NCBI GenBank assembly: GCA_035236585.1
Contig: CP141126.1
Coordinates: 66,875,414 to 66,939,413, forward strand
DNA: 64,000 nucleotides
From: Warburgia ugandensis
Taxonomy: Eukaryota; Streptophyta; Magnoliopsida; Canellales; Canellaceae
Reading direction: 5' to 3'
Shown here: one piece after another, positions 10,093-64,000 of the stretch
How positions within the stretch are numbered: the first letter of the stretch is position 1
How the letters are laid out: the number at the start of each line of letters is the position of its first letter
Position numbers and translations under genes: made by a program
Notes under the pieces: model-generated
What the model saw: only the letters and a program-made list of their open reading frames with translations
Databases searched by the model: none
What the model was told of the DNA's origin: nothing

Positions 10093-10130
10093 AGAATGGC
10101 GGTGATTGGAGAAGAAATCACCGCCATTCT
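10093..10130 (+). repeat. Perfect 15-bp hairpin in the D1 LTR
   Basis: Arms AGAATGGCGGTGATT (10,093-10,107) and its exact reverse complement (10,116-10,130) flank an 8-base loop. The hairpin lies 63 bp before the TATA box of the same LTR. A related hairpin lies at the same distance in the other D copy (24,603-24,644). Confidence 0.85.
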
Positions 10131-10192
10131 GGAGGTTTCTCCATTGCCATTTGAGGGCGGTGAGAGCCCCCTCCAGAACCCTCTTATAGCTC

Positions 10193-10200
10193 TATAAATA
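10193..10200 (+). promoter_or_regulatory. TATA box of the D1 LTR promoter
   Basis: TATAAATA lies in a GC-rich setting, in the LTR sense orientation. The same motif occurs at the equivalent place in D2 (minus strand, 24,534-24,541), which supports a real U3 promoter and not a chance AT run. Transcription from this old solo LTR is not shown by the sequence. Confidence 0.6.

Positions 10201-21731: not shown

Positions 21732-21735
<4 letters not shown>

Positions 21736-21815
<80 letters not shown>
21736..21815 (+). repeat. (CT)n microsatellite, about 40 units
   Basis: An uninterrupted CT dinucleotide tract of about 80 bp. The leucine/serine open frame running through it is an artefact. A second tract of nearly the same length lies at 30,226-30,305. 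Confidence 0.98.
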
Positions 21816-21819
<4 letters not shown>

Positions 21820-24533: not shown

Positions 24534-24541
24534 TATTTATA
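24534..24541 (-). promoter_or_regulatory. TATA box of the D2 LTR promoter
   Basis: Minus-strand TATAAATA sits at the position equivalent to the D1 box, in a setting of matching sequence (AGAGCTC upstream, a GGCAGCCCAAAAG-like phrase downstream). Confidence 0.6.
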
Positions 24542-24602
24542 GAGATTTTACAGAGGGTTCTGGAGGGTTTCTAACCGCCTTTGAATGGCGGTGGGGAACC
24601 CT

Positions 24603-24644
24603 CTGGAATGGCGGTGGTTTCTTCTTAAAACACTGCCGTTCCAG
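24603..24644 (-). repeat. Hairpin in the D2 LTR
   Basis: Arms 24,603-24,616 and 24,631-24,644 pair at 12 of 14 positions around a 14-base loop. Position and core (GGAATGGCGGTG) match the perfect hairpin of D1. The spacing to the TATA box is about 61 bp here and 63 bp in D1. Confidence 0.7.
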
Positions 24645-25379
24645 AAACCTCTAGGAGGTTGAAGACGACGGGGTGCCCGTATCAAAATGGGCACCTGTGT
24701 TTTTCAGGTTAAATCGTTTTTGAGAAATTTTCAGTTTTGCCCCTGAACTTCAAAGGGTCATATCTTGCTCATTTTAACTCCGTTTTGGGTGATTTTGGTC
24801 TCGTTGGATTCCGTTTTCCGAGACGGATCTAATAGAACCACTTTTGGGACCAAATTCCTGGGTTTAGTCAAGGTGACTAGTGAAATGACCAAAATTCCCT
24901 TATCTTTAAAACTAAACTTTTTATGGGCTTTTAATATTACAAAATTTGGGGTCATTACATTCTTACCCCCTTAAAAGAATTTCGTCCTCGAAATTCCATA
25001 ACTTATTATCTTCCAAGTATTTGTCTCTTAGATGATTTCTTGGTGGATGCATTCTCCCCTTCAGGATCAAATCTAGGTTCATCCTCAATTTATTATTTCG
25101 ATTGTTCCTCCTATAAGGCCTCACCTATAAGAGATGCTTTTGCTGCGTACTCTGATGCCCCGCCATACTCATTTTAACTCCGTTTTGGGTGATTTTGGTC
25201 TCGTTGGATTCCTTTTTCCGAGACGGATCTAATAAAACCACTTTTGGTACCAAATTCCTGGGTTTAGTCAAGGTGACTAGTGAAATGACCAAAATGCCCT
25301 TATCTTTAAAACTGAACTTTTTATGGGCTTTTAATATTACAAAATTTGGGGTCATTACAACAAGTGCAGGTAGTTTCGA

Positions 25380-30222: not shown

Positions 30223-30225
<3 letters not shown>

Positions 30226-30305
<80 letters not shown>
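30226..30305 (+). repeat. (CT)n microsatellite followed by short (GT)n
   Basis: About 40 CT units, then TTTTGTGTGTGTGTGT up to about 30,323. It lies near the gag/leader boundary of Tat-2. The open frame across it is an artefact. Confidence 0.97.
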
Positions 30306-30307
<2 letters not shown>

Positions 30308-30309
30308 TT

Positions 30310-35519: not shown

Positions 35520-38500
35520 TCACATTGGAGCAGGCACAGGCCTCAAATTGGGTTGTTGAAGGTACTCTTCTAGTCTCAAACAGACATGCTAGGGCCCTTT
35601 TGATACATGGTACACCCATTATTTTATTTCATATGTTTTTGCATCTTACCTTAATGCATGTGTGCATAAATTGGCATTTGGATTGGTTATTTTTACTCTG
35701 GCAGGAGAGACTATAGAGGCTACTAAGTATCTTCAAGGGATACCAGTAGAGATATCGAGTATGAGGATGGACTTAGACCTCATTCTATTAGATATGGTTA
35801 ACTATAATGTCATATTAGGGATGGATTGGTAAGCTACATATTAGGCTACCATAGACTGTTATAAGAAACGGATTATTTTTAATGTACTTAAGCAACTAGT
35901 GATTATATTTCAGGATAGAAAGAGCATGGCTAGTGCATTTATCATCTTTGCTATGAGGGTGGTAAGGGGTTAAGCACTAGAATGCATAGCATTCCTCACT
36001 TATGTGATTGTTGAGGACAGCAGGTAGCCTTAGATTGAAGATATTGATGTTGTGCAAGAGTTTGCAGATGTCAAGTTATCACGATTGCTGCAGAGTAGAG
36101 AGATTAACTTTACCATTGATTTAGTACTATGTACATCGCCCATCACTGAGGCACCATATAGGATGGCTCCAGCAGAGCTGAGAGAGCTTAAGGTGCAGTT
36201 GCAGGAGTTACTTGATAAGGGCTTCATCAAGCCAAGTGGGTCTCCTTAAGGAGTACTAGTCCTCTTCATGAAGAAAAAAAGATGGATCGTTGAGGCTATG
36301 CATTGACTATCGGTTGTTGAACAGTGTCACTATGAAGAACCGATACCCGTTGCCTTGCATTAATGATTTATTCGATCAGCTCCAATCAGCACAAATGTTC
36401 TCTAAGATAGACATGAGATCAGAATACCACCAATTAAGGATTAGAGAAGAAGATATCTCGAAGGCTGCATTTAGGAGTCGTTGTTGTAATGACCCTAATT
36501 TTTGTAAATTGATAGAGAAAATCAATTTAGCTTGAATTTTCAAAAATTTTGGGCTAGACTATTACGTTATTGGAAATTCTCTTTTTATAGAGATTAAAAC
36601 ATAATTTAAAACTTAGAAATTATGAATGTACTTGAAAAACTGATCGAAATGACACTAAGTACATTCAATTCTGAGTTAAAATGAAAAATTCCTAATTTTC
36701 TTCATTTTTATAAATAAAAGGATACAATGGTAATTTTACCCATAACAAGATCTAATACATCAATATTTATAAAGTACTCAAAAATACAAATCCAATGCCA
36801 CTAAGTATGCTCAATTCCGAGTTTAGGAGAATAAAATGGATTTTTCTCCATAAAAGTTCAAAATGGTCCTTTCACACCCCCGTGGGGCCCAAAAACGAAT
36901 CCAATAGCCAAAAAGCATGTAATCAGTGGTCAAACCACTACTAGCTGCTTGTGGAGAAGGAGGTGGTAGTAAAGGATCCATGTTAATTTAATATTTAAAA
37001 GAATTGAAACATGATTATTACAAGTAATTATGAAAATTTCAAAAACATCTTCAAATACACCTCCAAAAATGTTCCTTAAGATTTTCATGAAATCATCTTA
37101 CTTACTCTAAAAAACAAGATATAGATTCCTTCCCAAAATTCCAAAACTCCCAAAAATCTCCCTTCTTGCATTTTCTCTCTCCTCTCTCTAATTGGAACAA
37201 GAGACCTAAATTCAATTAAGCACTTTGTTCCAAATTGAATCTCACAAATCCCACCATCCATAAATCTACAAAACCCCCATATCAATTTTAGGATCCGACA
37301 ATGCAATCAACAAAAAATCACAAAACTAGCAACTATCGGGCTATCTTATCATCAAAGGGTATTTATTTCAAATTGGGCTTCAAATATAAGTTCTTTCTCC
37401 AATCAGATAGGTGGGAATACTTCTTATACTATTTTTCATGGTTTGCATGATTTATCAACTTAGCATAAGATGGATATGATTATGTTTTGAGACATTAACT
37501 ATTTTTCACAGTTTTGACCATAGGTATATATATACGCAATATACCATATAAATGTGTAAGGATGTACATATATCACAAAGTAAAGAAATTGATTCCTGAG
37601 TATGTTACGAACTATGGGATTATGAAGTATTAGGATTATATTGTCAAATTATTATGTTTCTTGAATCCCCTACCAAGCATAGCTTACTAAGATATTGTAA
37701 ATGTTTCAATGTTTACAAATGTTTCAAAAACAGAGAAGGAGAATTAGGAGCTCAAGACTTAAGAAATTTGGAAGAATAATCAATCAGGGCATATCCCTTG
37801 AAGACATATATTTTTATTTTTATTTTAGAGCATTGTATTGTATTGAGAGTTTTTAATGTATGGTGAGGTTTGAAATTTGGATTATGCAACTTGGACAAGT
37901 ATTGTACTGATACCCAGGGTGTACTGTGGACCATTGGATAGATTCTGGAATTTAATAAAAATATATTTCTTTAATATAATTTTATCTTGTACAAAATTCT
38001 ACTTATATTATGTATGAAGTGATGACTTGGGTTTTTGAAAACAAGTTTTAAAGAAAAAAATTCTGTTGCTTTGTTTTATGAAAATTTTTTACTACTAAGG
38101 GCACCTTGCATTTGAAAAGTATATTACAGAATGTGTTACAAAAACCTGAGGCGTTACAATTGTGGCCACTACGAGTTTTTGGTGATGCCTTTCAGATTGA
38201 CCAATGCATCAGTAGTGTTCATGGACCTAATGAACCTGGTCTTTTGAGCTTACTTAGATAAGTTCATGATCGTCTTTGTCAATAACATCCTAATCTACTC
38301 GTCTAGCCACGAGACACACAAGGAACACCTCTACATGGTGCTAGACACACTTTGCCAACATCACTTGGATGTAAAATTTAGTAAATTTGATTTTTGGTTG
38401 GAGAAAGTGTAGTTTTTATGCCACTCAATTTCAAAGGATGGAGTGGGGTTATAGACTCAACCACAGTGGAGGCTGTGTTACATTGGGAGAGACCCATGAC

Positions 38501-43874: not shown

Positions 43875-44200
43875 GTCCCACTACAAGATTCATTCAAGAA
43901 AAGGAAAAGTCTTATTTTAAAAAAGTAGGGATATGCTATTTATTTGATGAAGCTCCACTTGCTAATTTTCCCACTTTTTAATTTATAAAAAAAAACATAA
44001 AATCTACCTCCCTAGCTTGATCATAGCCAATTTCTTCAAATATGATATTATCAATGTCGATTGGCCTTTATCAATCTTTCCAACATGTCCTTGATTAAAG
44101 ATCCAATGGCTAGATTAGGCAGATTCCCCAAAATTTTAATGATTTGGACTAAAGAAGGATTTTTGGTTTTGGATGGGTTAGATTGATTTCTAGATTTCAA
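43875..44200 (-). other. Tat-2 leader, part next to the 5' LTR
   Basis: Continuation of the leader beyond the F insertion. It matches 15,045-15,130 of Tat-1 at first and then becomes less clear. The primer-binding region was not recognised. Confidence 0.5.
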
Positions 44201-45318
44201 ATTGAATATCAGAGACATTGAATAAGCAAAGAGTTGTCCAAAGAACAAAATCTAAAAACTAATTTAAATTCTGATGTGAAACAGATTAGGAAATAAAGAT
44301 GTCTTATTTGTTAAGGCTAACCATTGATTAGGTTAGGCTTTAATAAAATCGACTTGGATTGCAGAGTTCTTGGATAAGTAAAACAGAGATAAAGAAAAGG
44401 ACAAAACTAAGGATAGATTGGGAATTTAGGAAAAGTGACCAAGGGCAAAATTTAGATTAAAAAATGAGTTTTAATAGAAACAGGAAACTATCAAACGAAG
44501 ATGATGCAAGGGGAGAAGAAGGAGAGGAAGAAAGGGAGGAGGAGAAAATAGGGATTACGAAGAAAACCCAGATTGGATTTTTTCTATTTGAGATCATTGG
44601 AGTCTGCCAGTGATAGAGAGAAGAAGATACAAATAAGGAGTTTTTGGTGCGTGTGCTGTTGGTGATGATGGTGCCAGGAAACAGAGGGTGTGGTACAAGC
44701 TAAGAAGATGTCACCAGCAAGTGGAGGGGAGATGAGGTGGAGCAGTGAACAGTGAAGGGTGAGGTAGATAGAAGAATTGAGGTGGAGGTGGGAGGCAAGT
44801 GAAGAATAGAGGGAGAGGACTAGAGTTGGGCAAAGCAGTGGTGCTAGCTCGGTGCGGTGAAGTGGTAGCAGAAAGCATGAGAGAGAAAAGGACTGTGCTA
44901 CTAGGTTTTGACATTGGCCATGCGACGAGGTTTTCTCTGTTTCTTCTTAGAAAGGAAAAAGTCATATCTACAGGATTTTCTTTCTTATTCCTTTAAGCAT
45001 CTCCATCTTGTATCATGGGCCCCATGCGGCCTTGTCTTCCTTTGATGGTGCTCTAGTCCATTAATTCAATCGAAGTTATTCAATATTCAATTTGGTTGAT
45101 CTGCACCATGCAAAACTCAATTAGATTCATCTTGATCATACTTTAATTAATAGATTAGCTCTTAATGATCATCTAAACATAAAATTTGGAAAATTAATGG
45201 TTACATGATTAATTAGAACTAAAATTAAAATTAATCTAAGAATTACAAATTTGATTGGTTAGATGGTCTAATTAAATGCTAAATTAGGGGTATTTTGACC
45301 AACATTAAACACTTGACA
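44200..45318 (-). repeat. 5' LTR of Tat-2 (family C)
   Basis: Minus-strand start TGTCAAGTGTTTAATGTTGG at 45,318. It matches the split 3' LTR at 22,020-22,140 and 25,620-26,579. The inner edge near 44,200 is a guess. The open frames at 44,711-44,996 come from its purine-rich part. Confidence 0.55.
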
Positions 45319-45326
45319 TGAAGTTA

Positions 45327-47690
45327 TGATAACACACAAATGGATTCTTTATAAAGCAAAGCAACCTAAAGGGCAAGTCCGCCTATAGATATCTTCTCTC
45401 TTTCACACTTAATTAGATAGGAGAGGAACCCACATGGATTCCATGTGATTTACAAGGGAGAATAGAAAGTAAGTGAAGGTTATACGATATCTTTGGAAGG
45501 AAGTTTGCACATTACATAGAAGTGGCAACAAATATTGCTCATCATGTATTAAGGATGTCTTATGCAACATCTTTGGAGGATCACAATACGCCCTTTAGAA
45601 AGTTTGGTGTGTGTTGGACTCTTTGGGAGAAATAAAGAGAAAGTTCACGATCTAAGGAGGAAAAAAGAAAAAGAAAGGGAAATTTTGAGGCATGAAATAT
45701 TAAAAGAAAATTAGGGCTTGGCATCATCTACTAAGCAGGGAAAGAGAGAGAGGAGGGGGATTCATAAAAAGGGAAAGAGGCTGCATTGCATGATATTCCT
45801 TTGTAGAGTTTCTCATCCTATCATTTTTGAAGCTTTGGGAGATTTCTTTGAAGCTTACACAATCAAATCCTATAGGAATAAAAGTGCTTGAGTTGTGTGA
45901 GAAATCAAAAGAGGAGGAGAAGCAACACATCATAGGTGAATAGAAGATAGCTAATTGTTTTTCCTTTTTTAAGAACTTCACTCTCTTAAGGAAAGATTTC
46001 ATAAGGGATTGTTTGGAGAGGAAATAAAACACAGCAACTTATTTTGTCTTCATGAAGCTAATGTATAAGAGAAGAAAACAAGGAAAGACCTTTTCTAAGA
46101 ACTTCACTCTCTTAAGGTAGGATTTCATAAGGGATTGTTTGGAGAGGGAATAAAACACAACAACTTATTTTATCTTCATGAAACTAACGTATAAGAGAAG
46201 AAAGAAGAAAACAAGGAAAGACTTGGGTGGAGAATTTAAGAGAGCACCATCACTTTTTGGTGGATAATATATATGGTTTTAATCTCAGAAATCACTTACA
46301 TGTCACTATTTAGGGTTAAATCTAGTATTTTGCAAGTCTAGGATACAAATTAAAAAAAAAAAAAAAACTAATTTTACCCCTCATTGTATGTGACTATCAA
46401 AGTTAGAGCAATTAGAAATCCCATGCACAACTTTTACTCAAATGATGATGAACAGGTGACAAATTCTGAATTCATGCATAGACGCATGCATTTCACCACC
46501 TTAAGAAGCTTATGAGAGAAGTTTAATTCACATATAGTGGGATCATATATAATGAGATCTTCTTAGAAATAAAAGAAGACTAGGTCCCACATGAAGACTT
46601 TTTACTTATTTTCTCTCACCTACTCAACCAAAAGAAGAAGATCAACCAATGATTGAATGTCTTATTCATGCAAGTTATTTAAGTCTACTCGGTTGACAGA
46701 AACAAGAAGAAATATGTAAGGAATCAAGATCACTCATCTTAGGGCAATTCAATCTATGGTGAAGAGAAAATGAAGCTTAAAGAAGATCTACCCATCCATT
46801 CATGTAAGGGTAAGCATGATCCAAGGACTAGGAATGAAATATTAGAAAGGTCAAAACCCTAATCACCTTCTTATGTTGAAAAGTCAACCCAAAACCTTAA
46901 TGAAAAGAATATCTCAACCACCCATCTTGATCCCATGTTCATCTCATCGTAGGGTTTCTAAAAGCAAACCACATACATCAATTTGAATTTTAAGCATCCC
47001 ATCCTTTAGACTTTCTAATTTTGAATTCCCTTAGGTTTTTCCACCTACTTTCATTTCTTTCACTTTTCTTCCCATCTATTTTCATTTCTACCTATTCCTT
47101 ACCTACCTGTTAGGTTATTTCCTTTTCTTTTCAACTTACCACCTTACAATTTTCACCCCAAAACCCACATGGAAAAATACGCCTCCTCCCCCCCTCCCCC
47201 CCCTTTCTATTCCTTGTACTTTAACATCCCATCTTCTCTTCCATATCAACCATTCAACTATCCTTTCTCCCTTAGATCTTAGTCATCAATTGTTAGAGCT
47301 TCCACTTCTCTTGTTTTATTTTCTTTATTCTTTTCATTCCTTATAATTGTAATGAAGTTTATTAATGAAATTGTCTTTTCCATTCCTTAGTTAATTTTAA
47401 TTTAGTTTCCTTTGCTTTCTTTTTGTTATTTTAGTTTAAGTAGTTTTTTTTTTTTACTTTTATTTCATAGCTTAGGTTTACTTGATTTGATTTAGTTAGC
47501 TTAGATTATTTATTTAGTTTAGTGTTCTTTCACTTTCCTTCCTTGCTTGGCTAGGTTAGAGTGAAGCAACTTAATTTTAATTAACTCTTGTTTATGAAGG
47601 AGTCTTTGTGGGATCGACTTGTATTTACGATTGTATACTCTAATAAAACCATGCACTTGCTGTAATTAAGCAATTAAGTGTTAATTAAAT
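45327..47690 (+). repeat. Probable Tat-like LTR, plus orientation
   Basis: Starts TGATAACACACAAATGG, similar to other Tat LTR starts. Near its end it has TTTGTGGGATCGACTTG (about 47,603-47,620) followed by AATAAAACCATGCACTTGC, the arrangement seen at the 3' end of Tat-lineage LTRs. No target duplication and no second LTR were found, so ends and status (solo or partial) are uncertain. The body is AT-rich with a pyrimidine-rich part at about 47,030-47,470 and no protein-like frame. Confidence 0.4.
45971..46225 (+). repeat. 126-bp tandem duplication
   Basis: Two adjacent, nearly identical copies start at 45,971 and 46,097, each beginning AAGAACTTCACTCTCTTAAG. They lie within the probable Tat-like LTR. 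Confidence 0.88.
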
Positions 47691-48112
47691 TTAGGTTGTA
47701 ATGGTTTACCACTAGTTTTAGACTTAGGCTTACATATAGAATAGTTTCCATTTTAGCATGCTTTCCTTACTTTTCTTTTCATTTGTATAGGAAATTCATC
47801 AAGAAGAAAGACAATGAGGAAGACCTTAGGATAGTTTCCTTTAATTAATTTATTTATTTTACCTAAGCGGATTGTAGTGAGAACGTGCTTGTAAATTTTT
47901 TAAAATTTAAGTTTAAAATAAAGGGTTGTAATAATATAGATCCAGGATGGGCCATCGTAACCTAGAATGGGAGGTGGCATGTACATGGACCCACCCTTGT
48001 ACAAGAAGATTGATTCCAGGACCCCTTTGTGAGACTATTTTTCACTTCTTTCCATTTTCTAAATTAGTTGCATTTGGATGGTAGTGTAGAGCATATAGAA
48101 AGCATTTCCTTA
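47691..48112. other. Unassigned stretch before LTR E3
   Basis: About 420 bp without gene or repeat assignment. If the LTR at 45,327 is real, this would be the start of that element's leader, but no coding sequence follows. Confidence 0.35.
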
Positions 48113-50309
48113 TGTGACACGCTAGGTTTTTCATGAAAAATTTTCACGTTTATTTTCAAAAGGTGGCATGCCTCAAATTTTAAAATTCAAACAAGCGCAA
48201 GATAGTTTTCTTTGAAATTCATTTTTCCAAAAACCTGGATGTCACCTCAACTCCCATACTATACATAATATAGTTTTTATAAAAGATAGACATACATTTT
48301 ATGAAACAACAGGACCCATCTAGTGGTTCACATACACAACCTTTATAATCATTATATTAAATGTCCAAGTAGCATAATCCAAATAACTATCTACACCATA
48401 TAAAAACTTTAACAAAATATATACCTGAGTGTAGAAGTATGGCTATTGAACTCTTGCTTGTGTATGTCTTCTCCTATTTGTATATATCTGAGATATTGTA
48501 AACATAAAACATTTACAATATCTCAGCAAGCTATGCTTGGTAGGGGAGATTTAAGAAAACATGTTAATTACATATGAATTAAGAATTTTACATCCATTAA
48601 AATATTCAATTGTCTGCAAGCCATGGATAAAGTAACTATTTATAATTCTTCTTCATCATATGAATATAATAATCATTCTTTAGAGATTACCCTTTACATG
48701 ATATATGTAATTCACTAGTATTTTAAATATTTATCATTATCATTTTCCATATGATACCATACACTGCATAATATATCTACCCATTCACTTCTCCTACGAA
48801 AACTTTTATAAAACTACACCCTCCAAAAATATACATATAGGACTATATCATATATATTGAAATGGTTAAAGTCATACAAAATTATGAATATAGACTGTAG
48901 GTTTTCTAACCTACATTCTGAGATTATACTGAGTCTCTTACATATACCCCTTACCATACGGGGTTTATAAAACTCCAGCTACTATTGGTAACATCATAAA
49001 AGGCATCTCATCATGCCATCATATACGCATGTCATCATGCTATCATATACGCATTGTTCCGTGGGCAGAGTGCATAACGGATATAATATTGTCCTCTTTG
49101 GGTCCCTCACAACTGCCTAACCAGCATCTCTTGGGTACTCTAGCATCTTTTGGCAATCCTCGAGGATACACATCATAGTGCATCAAATACATGGACTACT
49201 ATGCTGCAGTATAAATCCATACAGTGTGCCCAGATAATTGCATAATAATCCACTGATACTAACTATAGAAATAACAAAACCCATGTCTACATGGGGGGGA
49301 CCATGGCTGTCACAGTGGTGGCTTTTTCATGAATGCCTCAGCCGACATTTAGCCTCTCATCGACATGGCATCCATCATATAATAAATTTCAGAGAGCAGG
49401 TGGCCAAACCCTACAACTATCCTAGCATAGCATCCCCATGCCTATGCTTGTCTAAATCAAAACTCTTAGGCCACCACACCTGGATGTAAAATAATATTAC
49501 ACAGACCTCTTGCCTAGCCATAATATATATATATGAATATCTTATCATAATCCTAACATCCTCACTTATTAGGTGATCGCCCACCAAGGATGTACTGTAA
49601 AATCCTAGACCATACATCACATATGATGTAATGGTACCCATGTACAATAAATCTCTTTTTATCATAATAACAGTTATGATATTTTGAAGAATAGATTGTG
49701 TATATCCAATAATGTCACTAGTAGGTATCAATTATAAGCATGTCATTCATATAGCATTCCAAGTTACTAATTTTTATCATCCATAAGTAATCAATCTCAT
49801 AATCACTTATGTATGAAATGCACAGTTTAAATGATATAATGTTTATCATAAGTAATAAGATCATGTTTAAAACATGCATCTTCATATTAAGACATGCTTT
49901 GTTAATTCTCCGCCTACCTCGTGTGGCAAGTTCATCCATTTTCCACTAGCTTTAATCGCTCTCTTTTCCATGATCGACCACGCGCTTCAATATTATTCAA
50001 GTATTTCAATTGAGTTAGAATACATACAACTGCTACTGCAATAAAAAGAACAAAACATCTTTTAAGATAAGTAACTTGCCTTATCCCCTCTATTTTAAGC
50101 CTTGTTGCAATACCAATGGCTTTTGTGCTGATAACTGTTAGTGAACCCATCAGAGAATCGATGTCTAAGTAAACTAATATGTGTCTAACCATAACAAGGT
50201 TCGAAGTACAGAACCATTGCTAAGACCATTGACAATGAAGCTACTCATAAAACATAATTTTTAGTAGAGTGGTCAGAGTCCATGTCAATTTCTCGTTCTA
50301 ATTCTAGAT

Positions 50310-50690
50310 TTTATACATACAATTCTGGAGACTGGAATTTCGTGGAACAAGAGAATTCCATATTTTACACCTACAGTTCTGGGAATTGGATTTCTGAGGA
50401 ACTCGCGAATTCCAACTTTTACACATACAGTTCTGGGGAATAGAATTTTGAGGAACTCACAAATTCCAACTTTTATACATATAGTTCTAGGGACTGGAAT
50501 TTCAAGGAACTTGCGAATTCCAACTTTTACACATATAGTTCTAGGGACTGGAATTACGAGGAACTTGCAAATTCTAACTTTTACACATATAGTTATGGGG
50601 ACTGGAATTCCGATGAACTCACAAATATCAACTTTTACACATATAGTTCTGGGGACTAGAATTCCGTGGAACTCGCGAATTCCGGTCATC
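50310..50690 (-). repeat. 60-bp minisatellite, about 6-7 units, in E3
   Basis: Units of about 60 bp share the core GGGGACTGGAATTCCG, then GAACTCGCGAATTCCAACTT, then ACACATATAGTTCT. Because 60 is divisible by three, the array stays open on both strands: a 148-codon frame at 50,285-50,731 (minus) and a 131-codon frame at 50,448-50,843 (plus), each a string of 20-residue repeats. Neither resembles a known protein, and both are treated as by-products of the repeat. Confidence 0.93.
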
Positions 50691-50870
50691 TTCTCCCTTA
50701 CCCACTCGACCAAAACCCTAAACCTAAACACCTATAAACAAATTGAGATCAAAATGAAGATGGGATGGTGGGAATGGTGGAGATCAGAGGAAGGGTTTAC
50801 CCAGAATAAAGGATATGCGCCAGTGGGTAGAGAAACGATCTAAGCACTGAGGATTCTGCAGCTGCAAAAA

Positions 50871-51014
50871 TCCAAGAGCACCTTCAGCTTTGCCAAACTT
50901 AGGTAGTCCATCAGACAATCCTCTAGCAAATCTAGGTTGAGTTTGGACGGGGACCTTCACTACTTCCATGGGGCACAGGGCAACATCAGCAATCACCTCA
51001 ACAGATGCAGATCT
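50871..51014 (-). pseudogene. Captured exon fragment of mitochondrial phosphate carrier (PHT3/MPT)
   Basis: Forty-eight codons on the minus strand match the plant mitochondrial phosphate carrier, an inner-membrane protein that imports phosphate for ATP synthesis. Visible stretches are SASVEVIADVALCPMEVVKV, QTQPRFARGLSDGLPKF and KAEGALG. PMEVVK fits the carrier signature PX[DE]XX[KR] at the end of an odd-numbered helix. The protein is normally about 300-375 residues, so this is about one seventh. Just upstream on the same strand, TTTTCCCTTCTCTTAG looks like a polypyrimidine tract and splice acceptor. If the exon starts after that AG, the first codon completes the Gly expected before SAS in the family (from memory). 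Downstream the match stops after GALG. Its strand equals the LTR sense strand. It is a gene fragment, not a gene. Confidence 0.85.
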
Positions 51015-51034
51015 AAGAGAAGGGAAAATGAGGG
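51015..51034 (-). other. Probable splice acceptor kept with the carrier exon
   Basis: Pyrimidine-rich sequence ending in TTAG on the minus strand directly abuts the carrier-like codons. This implies that genomic DNA, not a spliced transcript, was captured. A match by chance is possible because only one boundary is visible. Confidence 0.45.
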
Positions 51035-52377
51035 AATAGCATGGCCGATCACCCACATCGGCCTCTAGTCAATCAAGGTGGATGAAGAGGGAAGAGAGAT
51101 AGGATTGGGTGTGGTTGGCCTAGTTAGGCAAGTTGCTGAAGGGAAAATAGGAAAAGGTATCAGGTTGGCTGCGGCCACTAGGGAAAAGGTGTTTCTTGGC
51201 CTCTGCATGGCGACCAAAGAGGAGAAACTAGGCACCCAGCATTGATCGCTGATCCCGTGCTAGTGGAGGAGCAGAAGGGAAAGAAGAAGATAAAGGGGAA
51301 AAGATCAAGCACAGCTGGCGGGCGGCTAGATATGAGAAGAAACATAGAGGAAGGAGCAGGAAGGATGGTGGCTTGAAATCTGGGTAGAGGGGAAGCTGGT
51401 GCAGGTAAAAGATTGAACAGATGGGGTTTGGGATTGCCAGATTCTACATGTTTTAAGCGCCCCCTTGTTTTCTCTATTTGTAGATTTTAGACACGGGACA
51501 AAGCAACAACACATAGCATCTAGCCCACTGCACGTCGAGCTCGACTCCATGCGTGTCGGGTTTCATAGTTGTCTAGTTTCTTTGTTTGAGAATAGATCAT
51601 ATGATTTGTTTTTTGGAAAACCACTAAGGGGGGGGGGTACCATTATCAAATATGGCCCAACCTTTTATTATTTTCTTTTCTTTTCTTTTTATATATTAAA
51701 CATGGAATGATTGTGTTTTTTTTGCAACATTCCACTCAGCCTAAGTTTAGTCAATGTGTATGATTGTTACATCCCAATACCTCATCACTATCAGACTTGC
51801 ATTTTGCAAGTGGGGTCTACTAGTGAAATTACAAAAATACCCTTTTATAAGAAAATTATTGTTTATTCGTCCAAACTCTAATTTCAGTAAACTTAGGGTC
51901 ATTGATTCATATCGACTAGTAGAATCCAGATTTTATAATTTCAATTTCAGGTTCTTAGTTTTTTTATACTTTTAATTACCAAAATAGCCCTGAATTCGAA
52001 GTCCCATAACCTCTTCATCTAGACTTTGTTTTTACCGTTCTTTGGATCATTGGATTCTATTTTCTGACTACTATCTAATGATTTTAGCTTTAATTCCAAA
52101 TTATACTTATATAAAAAGATATACCCCTTGAAAACTCATAACCCAATCATGGAATAGTGAAATTTTGGGATGAAATTCATCCATAATCCAATTTTAGTGT
52201 TCTTGACATCTTTGAACTAAACTTTTCAAGTATATTCCAAACATTCATGTTTCCACTCCAAATTCCATTTCTATATAAAATTATTTTCTTTGGGTCAAAA
52301 TTCCAATTATATTCCAAAAATTTCAATTTCACATAATAAAGCCTAGAATAGTATTCACAAAATTTGGGGTTGTTACA

Positions 52378-55300
52378 TACAAGAATTAAAGAAGCAGAAG
52401 GTTAGGAACATATGTAGTAAAAAATGCATGGCAATGTTACCATTCAAATGCATATTCAAGGGGCAATTTACATACCTTCATGAATGAAACATCAAAATCT
52501 AAAACATGTGTGATCTCAAACTAAATATATTATATTTAATGTGGTCAATTTCAATAATTTACAAGCATTAAAGAAGCATGGTAATGTTGCTATTCAAGCA
52601 CATATTCAAGCTACAATTTGCATTCATTCTAGAATGAAACATTAAAATATAAAATGTGGGTCTTCTTAAACTCAATGTATTCTATATAGATTTATCAATT
52701 TCTAGCATTTACAAGCATTAAAGAAGAAAAAAGTCAGGAACATATAAAGTAAAAAAATGCATGGTGGTGTTACCATTGAAACACGTATTACAGCAAACAT
52801 ACATCAAGCACCCATTTGCATGGTTTTTCTAATGAAACTTCAAAATCTAAAACATGGGCCTTCTTAGACTCAATGTATTCTACCTAGAATGACTAATTTC
52901 AAGCATTTGCAAACATTAGATAAGCAGACAATCAGGAACATGTGTAGTAAAAAATGCATGGTACTGTTACCATTCAAACACATATTCAAGCAACAATTTG
53001 CATACCTTCTTGAATGAAATATCAAAATCTAAAATAAGGGTCTCCTTAAACTCAATATATTCTATTTAAAATGATTAATATCAGCATTTACAAGCATTAA
53101 AGAAGCAAAATTTTAAGAACATATATAGTACAAAATGCATGATTATGTTACCATTCAAACGTGTATTACAAGAAGTATACTTCAAGCACCCATTTGCATG
53201 CCTTTTTAAAAGAAACTTCCAAATCTAAAACATGGGCCTTCTTAGATTTAATGTATTCTATCTAGAATGATCAATTTCAAGCATTTACAAGCACTAAAGT
53301 AGTAGAAAATCAGGAATATATATAGTAAAAAACATATGGTTATGTTACCATTCAAACACATATTACAAGCATACTTCAAGCAACAACTTGCATGTCTTTT
53401 TGAATGAAACCTCAAAATCTAAAACATGAGTCTTCTTTGATTCAATGTATTCTATCTATAATGATCAAATTTAAGCATTAAAAGCATTAAAGAAGTAGAA
53501 AATCAGGAACATATATAGTAAAAACACATGATAATATTACCATTCAAATGCATATTCAAGCAACAATTTGCATCACTTCATGAATAAAACAATCAAATCT
53601 AAAACATGGGTCTTCTTTAACTCAATGTATTCTATCAGAAATGATCAATTTTAAGCATTTACAAGCATTAAATAAGCAAAAAATTAGGAGGATATATAGT
53701 AAAAAATGCTTGGTAATGATGCCATTCAGACGCTTATTCAAGTAATAATTTGCATGCCTTCTTGAATGAAACATCAAAATTAAAATCATTGGTCTCATTA
53801 AACTTAATGTATTCTATCTAAAATGATCAATTTCAAGCATTTACAAGCATTAAAGATGCAAAATATCAGGAACATATATAGTAAAAATTGCATGGCAATG
53901 TTACCATTCAAACACATATTCAAGCTACAACTTACATACCTTCATGAATAAAACATCAATATCTAAATTATTGGCCTTGTTAAACTCAATGTACTCCATC
54001 TAAAACAATAAATTTCAAGCATTAAAGAAGCAAAAAATTAGGAACATATATAGTAAAAAATGCATGGTAATGTTACCATTCAAACTCATATTCAAGCATC
54101 ACATTGCATCCCTTCTTAAATAAAACATCAAAATATGAAACATGGGACTTCTTAAACTCAATGTATTAAATCTAGAATGATCAATTTTAAGCACTTACTA
54201 GGTTTAAAAACTAAAAAAATCAGGAACATATATAATAAAAGATGCATGGTAATGTTACCATTCAAACGAGTATTATAACAAGTATACTTCAAGCACCCAT
54301 TTGCATGCCTTTTTGAATGAAACTTCAAAATCTAAAACATGTGCCTTTCTTAGACTCAATGTATTATATCAAGAATGATAAATTTCAAGAATTTACAAGA
54401 TTTAAAGAAGCTAAAAATCAGGAACATATGTAGTAAAAAATGTGTGGTAATGTTACCATTCAAACGCGTATTCAAGCAACAATTTACATACCTTCTTGAA
54501 TGAAACATAAAATCTAAAAACATAGGTGTTCCCAAACTCAATATATTATATTTAGAATGATCAATTTTAAGCATTTATAAGAATTAAAGAAGCATAAAAT
54601 CACAAACAAAAATAGTAAAAAATGCATGGTAATGTTATCGCTCAAACACATATTCAAGTTACAATTTGCATTCACTCTGGAATGGAACATCAAAATCGAA
54701 AACATGAATCTTCTTAAACTCAATGTATTCTATCAAGGTTGATCAATTTCAAGCATTTATAAATATTAAATGAGCAAAAAATCAGGAACATATAAAGTAA
54801 AAAATGCCTAGTAATGTTACAATTTAAACACGTATTATAACAAGTACACTTCAAGCACCCATTTGCATGGCTTTTGCAATGAAACTTAAAAATCTAAAAC
54901 ATGGGCCTTCCTAGACTCAATGCATTCTATCTAGAATGACTAATTTAAAATATTTGAAAGCATTAAATAAGAAGAAAATTAGGAACATGTATAGTAAAAA
55001 ATGCATGGTAATGTTACCATTCAAACACATTTAAGCAACAATTTACACACCTTTTGAATGAAATATCAAAATACAAAACAAGGGTGTTCTCAAGCTCAAT
55101 ATATTCTCTTTAGAATGATCAATTTCAAGCATTTATAAGCATTAAAGAAGCATAAAATCACGAACATAAATAGAAAAAAATGCAAGACAATGTTACCGTT
55201 CACACACATATTGAAGCTATAATTTGCATTAATTCTAGAATGAAACATCAAAATCTAAAACATAGGTCTACTTAAACTCAATGTATTCTATCTAAGTTGA

Positions 55301-56803
55301 TCAATTTCAAGCATTTACAATCATTAAACAAGTAGAAAATTAGGAACATATAAAGTAAAAATTGGCTGGTAATGTTACCATTCAAATGCTATTACATCAA
55401 GTATACTTCAAGCCCCATTTTCATGGCTTTTCCAATGAAATCTCAAAATCTAAAACATGGTCCTTATTAGAATCTGTATTCTACCCAGAAAGACCAATTT
55501 CAAGCATTTGCAAGCATTAAATAAGTGGACAATCAAGAACATGTAGAATAAAAAATGCATGGTAATGTTACCATTCAAACACATATTCAAGCAACAATTT
55601 GCATACCATCATGAATGAAACATCAAAATATAAAACAAGGGTCTTCTTTAAGTCAATATATTCTATTTATAATGATTAATTTCAGCATTTATAAACATTA
55701 AAGAAGGAAAAAATTAAGAACATATATAGTAAAAAATGTATGGTGACGTTATCATTAAAACATATATTACAACAAGTATACTTCCAACACCCATTTGCAT
55801 GGCTTTTTGAATGAAACTTCCAAATCTAAAACATGGGCCTTCTTAGACTCAATGTATTCTATCTATAATGATCATTTTCATGTATTTACAAGCATTAAAG
55901 AAGCAAAAAATCAGGAATATATATAGTAAAAAATATGGTTATGTTGCCATTCAAACACCTATTACAACAAGCATACTTGAAGCAACAATTTGCATGCCTT
56001 TTTGAACGAAACCTCAAAATCTAAAGCATGAGTCTTCTTTGATTCAATGTATTTATCTACTATGATCAATTTGAAGAATTTAAAAGCATTAAGGAAGAAG
56101 AAAATTAGGAATATGTGTAGTAAAAAATGCATGATAATGTTACCATTCAAATGTATATTACAACAAGCATACTTTAAGCAACAATTTTCATTTCTTTTAC
56201 AATGAAACATCAAAATCTAAAACATGGGCCTTCATTGACTCAATTTATTCTATCTATAATGATCAATTTCAAACATTTACAAACATTAGAGAAGTAGAAA
56301 ATCAGGACCATATACAGCAAAATATGCATGGTAATGTTGTCATTCAAATGCGTATTACAACAAGCATACTTCAAGCAATAATTTGTGTGCCATGTTGAAT
56401 GAAACATCAAAATATAAAACATGTGTCTTCTTAGATTCAATGTATTCTATCTAGAATGATCAATTTCAAGTAGCAAAAGATTAGGAACATATGTAGTAAA
56501 CAATGCATGGTAATGTTACCATTCAAATGCATATTGAAGCAACAATTTGCATGCCTTCTTGAATGAATTATAAAAATATAAAACATGGGTCTTCTTAGAC
56601 TCAATGTATTATATCTATAATGATCAATTTAAAGAATTTACAATCATTAAAGAATCAGAAAATTAGGAACATATATAATAAAAAATGCATGGAAATGCTA
56701 TCATTCAAATGTTTATTCAAGCAACAATTTGCATACCATTTTTAATGAAACATCAAAATCTAAAACATGGGAGTTCTTAAACTCAATATATTCTATCTAG
56801 AAT
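52378..56803 (+). repeat. Satellite array, about 24 units of about 182 or 196 bp
   Basis: Tandem AT-rich units recognisable by recurring phrases such as ATCAGGAACATATATAGT, AATGTTACCATTCAAAC, AAATCTAAAACATGGG and CTCAATGTATTCTATCT. Spacings of the AGGAACA landmark are mostly 180-183 or 192-198 bp. The long class has about 14-16 extra bases (ATTACAACAAGTATACTTC in place of ATTC) and linked differences further on (GGGCCTTCTTAGACTC instead of GGTCTTCTTAAACTC). One unit near 52,560 is short. The frames seen here (for example 54,356-54,723 and 55,962-56,440 on the minus strand) follow the repeat and are not genes. Length and AT content fit a plant centromeric or pericentromeric satellite, but function is inference. 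Confidence 0.95.
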
Positions 56804-59800
56804 TGTGATGACCCAAGTTTTTGTAATACATTTTCAAAGGTAGGGGCCTTAGTAGTAAAATAATTTCGCAAAACAAAGCAATGGAAATTCTTTTCTTTAG
56901 AACTTGTTTTGAAATACTTAAGTCACCACTTCATACATAACATAAGTAGAATTTTTGTACAAGATAAAATTCCATTGAAGGAATATATTTTTATTAAATT
57001 TTAGAATCCATCCAGTGGTTCACAGTACAACCAAATCCATTACAAAACTTGTTCAAATTACATAATCCAAAACTCAAAGCTCACCATAGAATGAAACTCT
57101 CATTAAAATACAATACTCCCAAACAAAACAAAATACATGTCTTCAAGGGGTATACCTTGATGATTATTCTCTTCAAGTCTTCTATAGTCTTATGCTCCTA
57201 ACTCTCCTTCTCTATATCTAAGATATTGTAAACATTGAAACATTTACAATATCTCAGCAAGCTATGCTTGGTAGGGGATTCAAGAAGCATAATAATTGAC
57301 AGTATAATTCTAATACTTCATAATCACATTATCCATAAACATACCCATGTATTTGACTCTTTACTTTGTAATATATGTACATGCTTATACATACACACTA
57401 TACATGGATAAATCCGTCCAATTTACAAAAGTAGTCAAATATCATTCCCAACTAAGCTGATCAATTCTTTCCACTGTGAGAAATTAGTATTTTAGCTAGT
57501 CCTATACTAAGAATTTCCATTATTGGGAAATATTGGTAATATACAATTACCTGGCATTTCATCATGCCAAAACATAAGGCATTTCACTATGCCTATCTCA
57601 TATGCATCATAGTGCAAAATAATCAAAGGACTACCATGGTGCAATTTGATCCATACTAGTGCGCTCGAATAACTGCCCTATTCACCACGATACCACGGTG
57701 GCAAATATTATGTCACTGCCCATATGGGGAGAAATGACTTTCATAGTGGTAGCCTTCCCATAAGTGCCCCACCCGACTTTTAGCCTCTCATAGGGGAAGG
57801 TATCATCAAATCATCAAATTTCAGGAAGCGGGTGGCCAAACCCTCATAACTCCCCTAGCATAGCATCCCCCAAGCTAATGCCTATTTAAAACAAAACCAC
57901 AAGCCTCCTTGCTTGTGTCTAAAATAGGTTTCATATGTATCAAACAATCTATTTGCTTACTTAGGGCTGGAATATCTTCTAGTTCCATATTCACTTAGAG
58001 TTTAATCCTCAATTCTAACTTAACTATTTCATATGTGTTTGGTTGGATCATAAGGGTTTTAGGGGATTCAACACAAGTATTAACATTACACTTGTCAATA
58101 AAAGTTCATAGGGCTCAACATATACATCCCATGTAAATGCATTAATCAAATCCTCCTACCTTTAAGTAGTAATCCATCTCTCCAGATCTTCCATGATCTT
58201 GATTGATGTATGTAATATGTACATCCATACATAATGTCAATATATATATATATATACAATTTGAATAATCCTATTGATCAATAGATCTGATGGTTAGAAT
58301 GATCTTCTAATCTTTCAAATCTAAGTATTTTTTATTCTATGTCTTTGCGTATCTATCTCTTTGATCTTGATCTTTCATAGATCCTTCGATCAACAATCTA
58401 TTCTTGTTGATAAAGATCAAGGGCCTAGATCTTCTATCATCTAGTTCTTCTTTGATTTAAGTTCAGTTATTTGATCATCCCTAAGGAGGATGATCCTGGT
58501 TCTTTTCCTTGAATCATATTTGATCAAGGGTTAGGATTATCTAATCTAATGATCTAGATTTGATCTATAGCATACATACTAATAAACATGCATACTAAGT
58601 ACAATACAATGTTATTATTTTTATTGTTCTTGATCATTCAAGATCCAATGGATCTTGTTTGATCATCCTTATCTTACTTACAATTTTTATTATGGTTAGA
58701 TAATTACTGACCTTTTATGCTCTTATTATTATTATTCAACTAGTTAATGTTTTATTGGTTGAAGATAACTTATGTCAACCTAAGTATAGACTGCTCCTCT
58801 TATTTTCAATTGGCAAAGGCTTACTAGCTGAATGGGTGAACACAAAGTGGTTACTTCAATCTTTATGTAAGGAGGTGTTTAGACCTCACAAATGTCAACA
58901 GAAGGTAGGGGAAGAGTGAGGCTCTATTAGAAAACCCCCTTAACCACCATGTTCAACATTCACAAGAGTGACCTTAGCTCAACCTTTCATAAGGTTCCTA
59001 TGAGCATGTTAACCCTAAGTACTCTTTCTAACTAATTTTAATTAAGTCCATGAACATTTAAAATGTTATTCATAGGGTTTATTATTCTCTTAGTTTGGGC
59101 CAAGGATTTGATAATCCTTATATTGTCTTACTAACTATAGCCCTTACTAATTAAGTCCAAGTCAAATAATTCACTCTTATTTGTGTCATGAAACTCTACT
59201 TTCTCATTAGATTTCATTTTTGGTGATTTATGAATATTAAGACATAACCACTAATTAAATAATTATATCTACTAATAAAATTTAAATCATAAACTTTAAA
59301 GTAGAAATCTATTATAATTTTAACAACATTTTACACTAACATGCTTCCTATGTAACTTAACTTAATGAAATGAAACTATACTTTAACTACCATGCTCCTA
59401 AGTTATAAAATACATAAAATTTTGCTCGTAATCTAATGGAATCATGCTTAAACTTCAAATGTAAACTAACATGGCCATAAGATAATTAAATCTATTAAGC
59501 TAATATAACAATCTAATAACATATAGAGCATAGTATGCTAAAATTTAAGAATTACACTATCATGCTTTATAACATAATTCACATTTACAATGCTATTATC
59601 AAATAAAAGACAATGAAACCAATTACATTAAGATTATTAGAAACCTTTACTTGTGATTCAACCATTAGATCTTAGATCTTTTCCTTTTAGTCAAGGGTTT
59701 TAATTAATTTTAATGCTTTTACTCCATTAAGGTCCAAAGATCATATCCCTTTGTTTTTGTCATATTCAATCCATGATATCAATGGATTCCATCATAATAT

Positions 59801-61635
59801 CCTTCATTCAATCCATCCCAAGGATCTAATCATACTTGATCTTATTGATCAAGTGGGTCCCTTTGTATTTTTACGGTTTCTCTACCATAAATAGTAGATC
59901 CCTCAATTTATCTTAGATCTGTCCAAATAAGTCATGGTTATCACTTTATTTCAACATTATATCATCAGTAAATCAAATCCCCAAGATATGATTATCTTAG
60001 ATCTTGAAGATCATGAAAATTAGAAGTTTAATTCTTAAATACAGAAAGTTTCATGAAGAATTTTCTAAATGTTACAATTTAAGAAGAAAATAAAAGTTAT
60101 AAGCTTTCTATAGCTTCTTTTCGATCTCAATTTGGAGTACAGATGTCTCCACAATTGAACTATAAAGTTCACAGTCATTCCTAGGGTCCATATTTGATCT
60201 AGGCCGAGTGGAACGGACAGCCTAGATTCGATCAAGTGGAGCAATCATCGTGCACCTGTCACTGAGACACACGCATAATGCGCTCCCCCAGTGACCGACA
60301 CTGTCATGCGGTCGTCCTATCAGGACGACATCACATGTGGCGTGCGCCCGTAGAATCTTTCCCACAAGGCGTATTTCCATGTCGTCTTTCACCAAACGTG
60401 CCGGGTTCTGACTTGATTTGGGGAGATCGGATAATCTGTTTAGACCGTTCAATCTCTTTACAATTAAGGGCTCAAAACATAATAAAATTTCTTAAAACTT
60501 CTACCCTAGGGATTTTGGACTCTTCTAGATCGATTGGGCTGCTCAAATTTTTTATCTAAGCCCTTCTTCACCCATAATTGAAGGGGTCTGATCCTTATTT
60601 TATTTTTATAAATTTTAACCTAAAACTAATTACAGATAAATAAAAATTACATAAAACAACTTGAAATAAGTATAAGAAGTGGTTCCACCCACCTGATTGG
60701 ATAAAAAAAGTAGATTTGAAGCCCAATTTGAAATAAATAACCTTTGATGATAAGATAGCTTGATAGTTCCTTGTTTTGTGATTTCCCGTTGATTGCACTA
60801 TTGGATCTTGAAATTGATTTGGGGGTTTTGTAGATAAGTTAGTCTAGGATGGTATGGATGGTGGGATTTGTGAGACTCAACATGGAACAAAGTGCCTAAT
60901 TGAATTTAAGTCCCTTGTTCCAATTAGCGAGAGGAGAGAGAAAGTTCAAGAAGGAAGATTTTTGGAAGTTTTAGAATTTTTGGAAGGAATCTAGATCTGG
61001 TTTTTTAGAGTAAGCAAGATGATTTTGTTAGAATTTTAGTGAATAGTTTTGGAAGATTTTTGGAGGGGTATTTATAGGTGTTTTTCATTTTTCATAATTA
61101 CATGTAATAATTATATTTTAATTCTTTTAAATATTAAATTAACATCGGATCCTCCACTACCACCTCCTTCTCCACTAGCAGTTGGTAGTGTTTTGACCAC
61201 TTGTTACATTTTTTTGGGCGTTGGATTTGTTTGTGGGCCCATGGGGTGTGAAAAGACCATTTTTCCTCTTTTGGAGAAAAATTTGTTTTATTCCCCCAAA
61301 CTCGGAATAGTGCATACTTAGTGGCATTGGAATCGTATTTTTGAGTACATTCTAAATATTGAGGTCTTGTTCTTGGATATTGGTAAAATTGTCATTTTAT
61401 CCTTTGACTCATAAAATGGAGAAAATTAGGAATTTTTCATTTTAACTCCAAATTGAACGTACTTAATGTTATGTCGATTGGTTTTCCGAGTACATTCATA
61501 ATTTATAAGTTTTAAATCATGTTTTAATCTCTATAAAAGGAGAATTTTCAATAACCTAATATTCCAGCCTAGAATTTCTAAAAACTCAAACTTTATTGAT
61601 TTTCTCAATCAATTTACAAAAATTGGGTTATTACA
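56804..61635 (-). repeat. 3' LTR of E2 (family E), about 4.8 kb
   Basis: Starts TGTAATAACCCAATTTTTG at 61,635 and ends at 56,804 (plus-strand TGTGATGACCC). Both ends match the short solo LTR E1. The middle (about 57,450-60,650) is absent from E1 and contains a GATC-rich part reminiscent of F's LTR, a CpG-rich block at 60,190-60,430, and a piece of Tat leader at 58,780-59,170. Open frames inside (60,222-60,559) are composition artefacts. Confidence 0.8.
58780..59170 (-). repeat. Tat leader fragment inside the E2 LTR
   Basis: Matches the Tat-1 leader (14,215-14,600) and the Tat-2 leader (30,500-30,860) in the same order, including AGGTGTTTAGACCTCA against AGGCATTTAGACCTCA. Edges are not clear and no Tat LTR was recognised beside it, so it is a fragment or part of a decayed nested copy. 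Confidence 0.5.
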
Positions 61636-61699
61636 ATCTTCCCCCCTTACAATAATTTCATCCTTGAAATTTGTAATACAATAACATAATCAAATAGAC

Positions 61700-61870
61700 T
61701 AGGGTGTGTCTTCCTCATTTCTACTTCTGTTTCCCATGTGGCTTCCTCAATAGAGTGATGTTGCTATAGGACTTTGACTAGCATAATAGTTTTGTTCCTT
61801 TAACTTCTGTTTCTTGCAGTCTAAGATCTGTATCGCCTTCTCTTCGAAGGTTAGGTTTGGATTTAGCTCT
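61700..61870 (-). pseudogene. E2 chromodomain-like tail
   Basis: The minus strand has the chromovirus end pattern: EEKAIQILD, then a Lys-rich stretch, then a truncated HSIEEATWE-like part. It lies between the integrase end and the polypurine tract, as in Tekay/Del elements, where the chromodomain is thought to guide integration to heterochromatin. It is broken. Confidence 0.6.
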
Positions 61871-61915
61871 TATGGCACCCTTTTGAAGTACATGTGTGTC
61901 ATCTTGTAGGTATTT

Positions 61916-62950
61916 TCATAGCATAGATATGTGAAAGACACTGTGTATTTCTAAGAGTTGGGGTGGTAAGGCTAATTTGTAAGCCACTAGACCAACTCTT
62001 TCTAGGATTTCAAATGGACAGATGAACCTAGGACTAAGTTTTTCTTTGCTTCCAAACCTCATTACTCCTTTGACTAGTGATACTTTCAAAAATACATGCT
62101 CCCCCACATCAAATTCCAGGTTTCTATTTCTTTTATCTATATAACTCTTCTGCTGACTGCATGCTGTTAACAACATCTTCTGTATCAATCTAACCTTGTT
62201 TGTACACTGTTTCACTAGTTCTGACTTTATTAGCTTTGTTTCTCCAACTTCACTCCAACAGGTTGGTGATCAACATGGCCATCCATACAATGCTTCATAT
62301 GGTTCCATAACAATACTGGCTTGAAAACTGTTGTTATATGTGAATTCTACTAATGGAAGATGTTCATCCCAATTCCCTTTCCAAGCTGATCCACATGCTC
62401 TCAAGATATCTTCTAAAGTCAAAATAGTCCTTTCTAATTGACCGTCTATTTGGGGGTGAAATGCTATACTGAATTTAAGTGAGGTTCCCAAGGCTTGTTG
62501 TACACTCTTCTAACATCTTGAAGTAAATCTTCCATCCCTATCAAAGATGTTGGATAGTGGAATCCCATGAAGACTTACTATTTCTTTGATGTATAACTTA
62601 GCTAGACTATCAACTGATTGGTTCTTCCTAATTGAAAGGAAATGTGTTGACTTTGTTAACCTATCCACAACCACCCAAATCATGTCATGACTTACCTAGG
62701 TCCTTGGCAATCCTACTACAAAATCCATAGTGATGTTATCCCATTTCAATTCTAAAAGTTCCAATGTTTGTAACATTCCAGCTGGTCTTTGGTGTTCAGC
62801 CTTTACTTGTTGACAATTTAGACATTTAGCCACAAATTCTCCTATTTCTCTTTTCATGCCTTCCCACCAAAAGTTTCTTTTCAAATCCTAATACATCTTT
62901 GTACCCTAAGGTGTATGGAAAATTTTGACTGATAAGCTTCTTGTAACAGT
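61916..62950 (-). pseudogene. E2 integrase remains
   Basis: The zinc-binding end and core start are visible at 62,696-62,884 (CLNCQQVKAEHQRP, WDNITMDFVVGLPRT). The core continues at 62,270-62,491 (HPQIDGQLER, LPLVEFTYNNSF, YEALYG). The C-terminal GPY/F-type module is at 61,916-62,215 (VGEHVFLKVS, KLSPRFICPFEIL, HSVFHISML). These are standard parts of a Ty3/gypsy integrase, which inserts the DNA copy. The frame is interrupted between the parts. Confidence 0.85.
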
Positions 62951-63149
62951 TCTTTTCTCAAGTCTGTATTTAAAGGATCCACCAATCTCTCCTAAAACCA
63001 TATACCCCCATCTATACCCTTACAAAATCTTTTCTTTTTACACAATTCCTGAGTTACTGTATCTTATTCTTGGGCTTCAAGGACTCTTTCTACAAAAGCT
63101 AATTTAATGGTGATGTTTGTGAGTATAGCTTTTGGCTGTCTACTTAATG

Positions 63150-63504
63150 CATAAGCTACTATGTTCGCTTTTCCAGGATGGTATTGGATGGTGAAATCAT
63201 AGTCTTTGATATACTCCATCCATCTTCTTTGTCTCATGTTCAAATCAGCTTGAGTGAAGGTGTATTTAAGACTTTTATAATCTGTGAATACACCAAATTT
63301 TTCTCCATACAGATAATGTCTCTAAATTTTTGATGCAAAAACTACAGCTATCAATTCTAGGTCATGTATTGGGTAATTTATTTCATGTTTCTTCAATTGT
63401 CTAGATGCATAAGCAATGACCTTCCCATTTTGTATCAACACACCCCTTAACCCTTTGTTTGGAGCATCACAGTATATTTCATATCCCCCACTTCCAGATG
63501 GCAA
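63150..63504 (-). pseudogene. E2 RNase H remains
   Basis: Open at 63,322-63,504 with the chromovirus RNase H pattern ([48 protein letters not shown]). The sequence toward 63,150 continues with the family's typical YTDHKSLKY-type region. It follows directly on reverse transcriptase. Confidence 0.8.
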
Positions 63505-63507
63505 AGT

Positions 63508-64000
63508 CTATACTGGTGCTGTAGTTAACCTCTTCTTTAGCTCTTGGAAACTATTTTCACATTCTTCTGTCCAAGTGAATTGTACCCCCTTTCTAGTCAA
63601 TGAAGTCAAAGGAAGAGCCATATAGGAAAATCCTTGAATGAATCTACGGTAGTATCCTACCAATCTAAGAAAACTATGTATTTCTGTTACTATTTTAAGT
63701 TTCTCCCAATTCATTATTTCTTCAACCATGGTGGGGTCCACCTCTACTCCATTCTTAGAAATTACATGACCCAAGAAATTGACCTTCTCTAACTAGAATT
63801 CACACTTACTTAATTTACCAAATAGTTTATGTGTTCTGAGCGTATTTAGTACAATTCGTAAGTATTCTTGATGTTCCTTGATACTAGTAGAGTAAATCAA
63901 TATATTATCAATAAATACAATCACAAATTTATTCAAAAATTCCTTGAAGATTCTGTTCATCAGATCCATAAACACTGCTAGCTCATTAGTCAACCCAAAA
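63508..64000 (-). pseudogene. E2 reverse transcriptase remains, cut by window edge
   Basis: 63,793-63,993 holds the palm region, with the catalytic box recognisable within [13 protein letters not shown] and the preceding FMDLMNRIF. 63,508-63,774 holds the end of the domain (GHVISKNGVEVDPTMVEEI, GYYRRFIQGFS, PLTSLTRKG). This is clearly Ty3/gypsy. The rest of the domain lies beyond the window. Confidence 0.87.

Follow-up and report, generated by a model that had tools for sequence, protein, structure and literature searches.

We identified, in a 64,000-nt stretch of Warburgia ugandensis DNA (hereafter, the window), a stop-free exon piece of a PHT3-type mitochondrial phosphate carrier that lies inside an LTR-like segment. 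The carrier homology, sense orientation, and acceptor-like edge of this fragment, as well as the LTR-type ends and the 3′ homology of the enclosing segment, were observed directly. We favor, with moderate confidence, the explanation that DNA-level copying brought one exon of a host gene for the PHT3 mitochondrial phosphate carrier, plus the end of the intron upstream of it, into the transcribed leader of a gypsy-type retrotransposon with large LTRs, where it would since have been carried as a decaying passenger; the recipient may have been the whole LTR family or this copy alone. As to the parts of this explanation, the fragment was probably taken as genomic DNA, and it is plausible that it belongs to the LTR proper and was not inserted into this copy at a later time. 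The features discussed below are collected in Table 1.

Table 1. Features in and around the carrier fragment, with positions counted from the first letter of the window.
Feature	Positions	Strand	Evidence
PHT3-type mitochondrial phosphate carrier exon piece, 47 codons, with P-x-E-x-x-K signature	50871–51011	minus	tblastn, BLASTP, Pfam
Acceptor-like pyrimidine tract and TTAG, then one base A (51012)	51012–51036	minus	tract statistics
Leader-like stretch, G+C-richer and pyrimidine-rich, from TATA-like site to fragment	51040–51480	minus	composition
TATA-like site TACAAATAGAG, ~470 nt upstream of fragment	51472–51482	minus	LTR offset 895
Tandem repeat, 6.9 copies of a 54-bp unit, immediately downstream (in sense) of fragment	50309–50683		Tandem Repeats Finder
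LTR-like segment, 4265 bp, TGTAACAACCCC...GTGTCACA, apparently solo or partial	48113–52377	minus	end motifs, 3′ homology
Related LTR without the carrier fragment, 3′ LTR of a Ty3/gypsy element	56804–61635	minus	motifs, interior domains

The carrier codons run on the minus strand from 51011 to 50871 (48 codons if the preceding AGA is included), and the minus-strand frame around them reads ...SLIFPSLR, followed by SASVEVIADVALCPMEVVKVPVQTQPRFARGLSDGLPKFGKAEGALG and then by FLQLQNP...; the carrier signature within the fragment is P-M-E-V-V-K. A tblastn search of the window with Arabidopsis PHT3;1 as the query returned this fragment, with identity at 33 of the 44 aligned residues (E = 4e-16) and a score of 70.5 bits, as compared to a maximum of 25.4 bits in 50 first-order Markov random windows, which bears out the claim of the original prediction that the codons match the PHT3/MPT carrier with its PXEXXK signature; no second PHT3;1 match was found in the window at E ≤ 10. 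BLASTP of the fragment yielded 72.4 bits with PHT3;1 and 45.1 bits with yeast Mir1; the PHT3 naming rests on these reference sequences. The Pfam family PF00153 (Mito_carr) matched the fragment frame with E = 2.6e-4 and 21.1 bits, just below the 22.3-bit cut-off, and a longer frame spanning the fragment with 17.2 bits (E = 0.0042). Judged by the tblastn and BLASTP comparisons, the match to the phosphate carrier subfamily is genuine and beyond chance.

Other collections yielded no confirmed relatives. In the viral collection, the 75-aa frame gave 41 pattern matches and a two-sequence carrier alignment gave 138, none of which was confirmed; in the genome collection, the same held for the 26 matches to PHT3;1 and the 35 matches to the carrier alignment. 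A distant DNA search of the plasmid collection with 50700–51500 found no match, and a literature search for two peptide motifs found no paper. The 10 matches of a PDB sequence search (up to E = 10) did not include a phosphate carrier; the best were designed repeat proteins (E = 0.0047, without any significant single stretch), and the tenth was a GTP/GDP carrier (E = 1.3).

The two relatives, PHT3;1 and Mir1, agree at 23 positions of the matched stretch, of which the fragment keeps 18 and replaces five; one replacement changes the arginine that follows K-V, just past the signature, to proline. The 47 codons contain no stop and 18 of the 23 common residues are kept, and sequence decay therefore appears modest. 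The fragment is likely decaying and, as a single exon piece, has likely lost its function; it is presumably functionless.

The carrier homology begins at TCT GCA TCT (SAS), directly preceded by a tract in which 21 of the 22 nucleotides ahead of AG are pyrimidines. An equally pyrimidine-rich tract stands before 3 of the 3197 YAG sites in the window and before one of the 28 within 50690–51560; the acceptor-like pyrimidine tract and TTAG that the original prediction noted at the upstream edge are present. The base A at 51012 would complete a GGA glycine codon in phase 2, and glycine is the residue that precedes SAS in PHT3;1. The Pfam Mito_carr match opens at the same edge (residue 21 of the frame). 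Upstream of the edge, a family alignment of 12 codons anchored at this position was equalled or beaten at 217 of 424 local positions, by 1860 of 3000 shuffles, and at 3608 of 6000 window positions, a test whose outcome depends on its gap cost. We considered whether SLIF, ahead of the tract, represents the gene continuing upstream, as in TLIY of PHT3;1, and rejected this reading because 217 of the 424 local positions score as well or better, a match no better than chance. Contrary to this rejection, SLIF does resemble TLIY, and in BLASTP with Mir1 the alignment continued upstream across the tract, although with few identical residues and a gap of 2 residues. The local stretch is also pyrimidine-rich, and chance acceptor-like tracts are therefore likelier there. 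At the far edge, the match fades after GALG, and BLASTP extends weakly to FLQLQNP. From the sequence, the upstream edge is likely a copied exon/intron border with a real acceptor. PHT3 genes in other plants have introns; passages of PMC5025438 give six exons for all six poplar members, and passages of PMC7084545 give four to six introns for the family in Brassica napus and Arabidopsis.

The enclosing segment begins, on the minus strand, with TGTAACAACCCCAAATTTTGTG and finishes with GCGTGTCACA, and it carries the TG...CA ends of the LTR type found in the window; its end at 52377, TGTAACAACCCCAAATTTTGTGAATA, is a near-match to TGTAATGACCCCAAATTTTGTAATAT at 25359. Its 3′ part (the last 1.6 kb) contains local stretches homologous to the LTRs at 56804–61635, 36485–38158, 22206–25359, and 9765–12392. 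Alignment scores for this part were 190 against the E3 LTR at 56804–61635 (maximum of 20 shuffles, 38.5), 143 against the solo LTR at 36485–38158 (41), and 65.5 and 77 against the E4a and E4b LTRs (33.5 and 31.5); the scores against the E2a and E2b LTRs (39.5 and 34) were barely over their shuffle maxima (33.5 and 33). The first 778 nt of the segment scored above 20 shuffles against four of the six other LTRs, but not against E3 (39, shuffle 40.5) or E2a (46.5, shuffle 46.5). The assignment of the 5′ part to an LTR rests on the terminal motif, this weak similarity, and the TATA-like site. BLAST at 1e-3 found no homologue of 50690–52370 elsewhere in the window; the continuity of the LTR through the fragment is therefore putative, and on this reading the whole stretch between the two LTR ends would be one LTR. 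No 5-bp TSD is present (flanks TTGTA versus TAAGG), and no PBS, PPT, or partner LTR was seen by eye; the segment can therefore be no more than a solo or partial LTR, which it probably is.

The original prediction had placed the fragment, in sense, inside a 4.3-kb LTR that it labeled E3, taken here as 48113–52377. The end motifs, the 3′ homology, and the sense orientation agree with this placement, whereas the lack of a TSD, PBS, and PPT and of any homologue for 50690–52370 does not. The further claim that the fragment could be copied into both LTRs of every descendant found no support: we saw no partner LTR, TSD, PBS, or PPT, and the fragment is missing from the homologous LTRs in the window.

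The TATA-like site was chosen for its likeness to TATAAATAGAG of E4b from the eight matches listed (of at least eight) to a loose pattern in 48113–52377; in the other LTRs, TATA-like TATAAATA is found at offsets of 559 (E3), 224 (solo), 428 (E4a), and 818 (E4b). The promoter role of this site and the position of the promoter are putative. The G+C content per 200 bp reaches 0.525 in the leader-like stretch, as compared to 0.25–0.44 in 47500–50000 and 0.25–0.33 in 51700–53000, and the minus strand of 50690–51560 is 60% pyrimidine. The fragment would thus lie in sense about 470 nt downstream of a putative promoter, inside a pyrimidine-rich leader. A plus-strand stop-to-stop frame of 191 codons (50268–50843) spans the 54-bp tandem repeat and adjoins the carrier fragment. 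A search for further captured gene pieces near the fragment found only Mito_carr (Pfam; three minus-strand frames of 447, 373, and 349 residues, running from 51800 down to approximately 50460, 50680, and 50750, and three plus-strand frames covering 50690–51765), and Rfam found nothing at gathering score in 44000–64000.

The LTR at 56804–61635 shows the terminal motifs, and a purine-rich tract borders it directly upstream of 61635. Matches to RT, RNase H, and an integrase zinc-binding domain lie upstream of this LTR on the minus strand; this Ty3/gypsy interior (62500–64000) contains stops, the scan having covered parts of two of the three frames. The gap between this LTR and the carrier-bearing segment (52378–56803) is filled by approximately 22 copies of a 182–197 bp tandem repeat. 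The solo LTR at 36485–38158 belongs to the same family as 56804–61635, does not contain approximately 3.2 kb that is present in the latter, and is apparently inserted into the RT region of another element; its 5-bp flanks are nearly identical by eye (GTTGT and ATTGT). At 24768–25359, the beginning of an E4-type LTR occurs twice, with 400 bp between the two occurrences (192 nt, 97% identical), which gives two LTR start motifs (24959 and 25359). Long CT microsatellites are located at 21735–21820 and 30224–30309.

The main rival explanation holds that the fragment was brought in by a small Helitron-like or Pack-MULE-like DNA element nested in this one LTR copy; we consider this unlikely. Helitrons are marked by a 3′ hairpin some nucleotides before CTRR, a 5′ TC, and insertion between A and T, and Pack-MULEs by long terminal inverted repeats and duplications of approximately 9 bp; both capture exon pieces at the DNA level, as would be the case here. 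A GC-rich hairpin with a perfect 7-bp stem (51043–51063, plus strand) starts some 30 nt away from the exon edge and is followed by T and then by CTAG-T (51065–51069). When the CTRRT sites of both strands are counted, 2 of 550 show a perfect stem of at least 7 bp with at least four G/C within 1–14 nt, a range that was fixed after the site at 51065–51069 had already been noticed. This hairpin is non-standard, however, with a gap of 1 nt to CTAG that is below the usual Helitron spacing, and no matching Helitron 5′ end was identified. The long terminal inverted repeats of Pack-MULEs were not found around the fragment either, the longest 25 of the 34 inverted pairs in 49400–52400 measuring 12–26 nt (71–100%). 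Exact direct repeats that bracket the fragment number, as raw counts, three of 10 nt, 19 of 9 nt, and 62 of 8 nt, with none of 11 or 12 nt. A nested arrival would also be consistent with the absence of the fragment from the other LTRs in the window and with the captures reported for maize, where, in passages of PMC2774510, Helitrons (1194) and other DNA transposons (462) stand against at least 189 for LTR elements.

We also regard it as unlikely that the segment is not one LTR but the 3′ part of an LTR (48113 to approximately 49500) joined by nested insertion or rearrangement to an unrelated segment that bears the fragment. Such a junction would fit the LTR-type motif that the opposite strand carries at 51765, the missing TSD, PBS, and PPT, and the lack of a window homologue for 50690–52370, but the end at 52377 closely resembles that at 25359, the first 778 nt exceed the shuffles against most of the other LTRs, and the TATA-like site lies roughly where the other LTRs carry theirs. 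It appears quite improbable that the fragment derives from a spliced carrier mRNA, picked up through a template switch while the element was being reverse transcribed. In that case the acceptor-like tract must be a chance feature of the pyrimidine-rich LTR leader, as could be suggested by the 60% pyrimidine of the sense strand and by the one such tract among the 28 local YAG sites, and template switching into the LTR did give rise to BARE-2, which took up foreign sequence in this way (passages of PMC13317346). However, the homology ends at the AG, an equally good tract precedes only 3 of the window's 3197 YAG sites, and an mRNA capture would more often be expected to bring more than one exon. 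Our preferred explanation remains the copying of one exon with its intron end, as DNA, into the leader of the retrotransposon.

Host gene fragments carried by LTR elements are familiar from maize, rice, and sorghum, and Bs1 of maize reportedly carries an H+-ATPase fragment. Compared with those captures, the fragment described here seems to sit within the LTR proper, retains an acceptor-like edge, and belongs to an element that is not intact; the surveys may also include LTR-borne fragments. The published passages count 425 intact LTR elements with gene fragments in maize, from at least 189 captures (PMC2774510), and LTR-element captures of 672 genes in rice and 1,343 in sorghum (PMC3726574). 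In a 2026 review (PMC13317346), captured fragments are presented as reservoirs of siRNAs. A gene scrap in mobile DNA such as the one reported here is genuine and ordinary in kind, because gene fragments within LTR elements are common (passages of PMC2774510); its placement in the LTR itself is mildly unusual. In the passages and listings of the literature on LTR-borne gene fragments, no clear case of a host exon within the LTR itself was found, which does not imply its absence from print. BARE-2 is similar in having foreign sequence inside the LTR, but its donor was another retrotransposon, whereas the donor here would be a host gene exon. With the PHT3 mitochondrial phosphate carrier (Mito_carr), the fragment shares 47 codons including P-x-E-x-x-K, but it is one exon piece with five of the 23 common residues replaced, and not a gene.

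If the fragment represents a one-off insertion, it is just another gene scrap in a nested repeat region. If it is fixed in the LTR, each copy would spread it through its two LTRs, in sense and beside a promoter, a more exposed position than the interior of an element for producing chimeric transcripts or for silencing a core mitochondrial transporter. It is very unlikely that a large-LTR gypsy family bears the carrier exon with its own acceptor, in sense and approximately 470 nt past the LTR promoter, in every LTR; if this were true, each insertion could give rise, across the genome, to spliced chimeric transcripts or to small RNAs directed at the PHT3 gene family.
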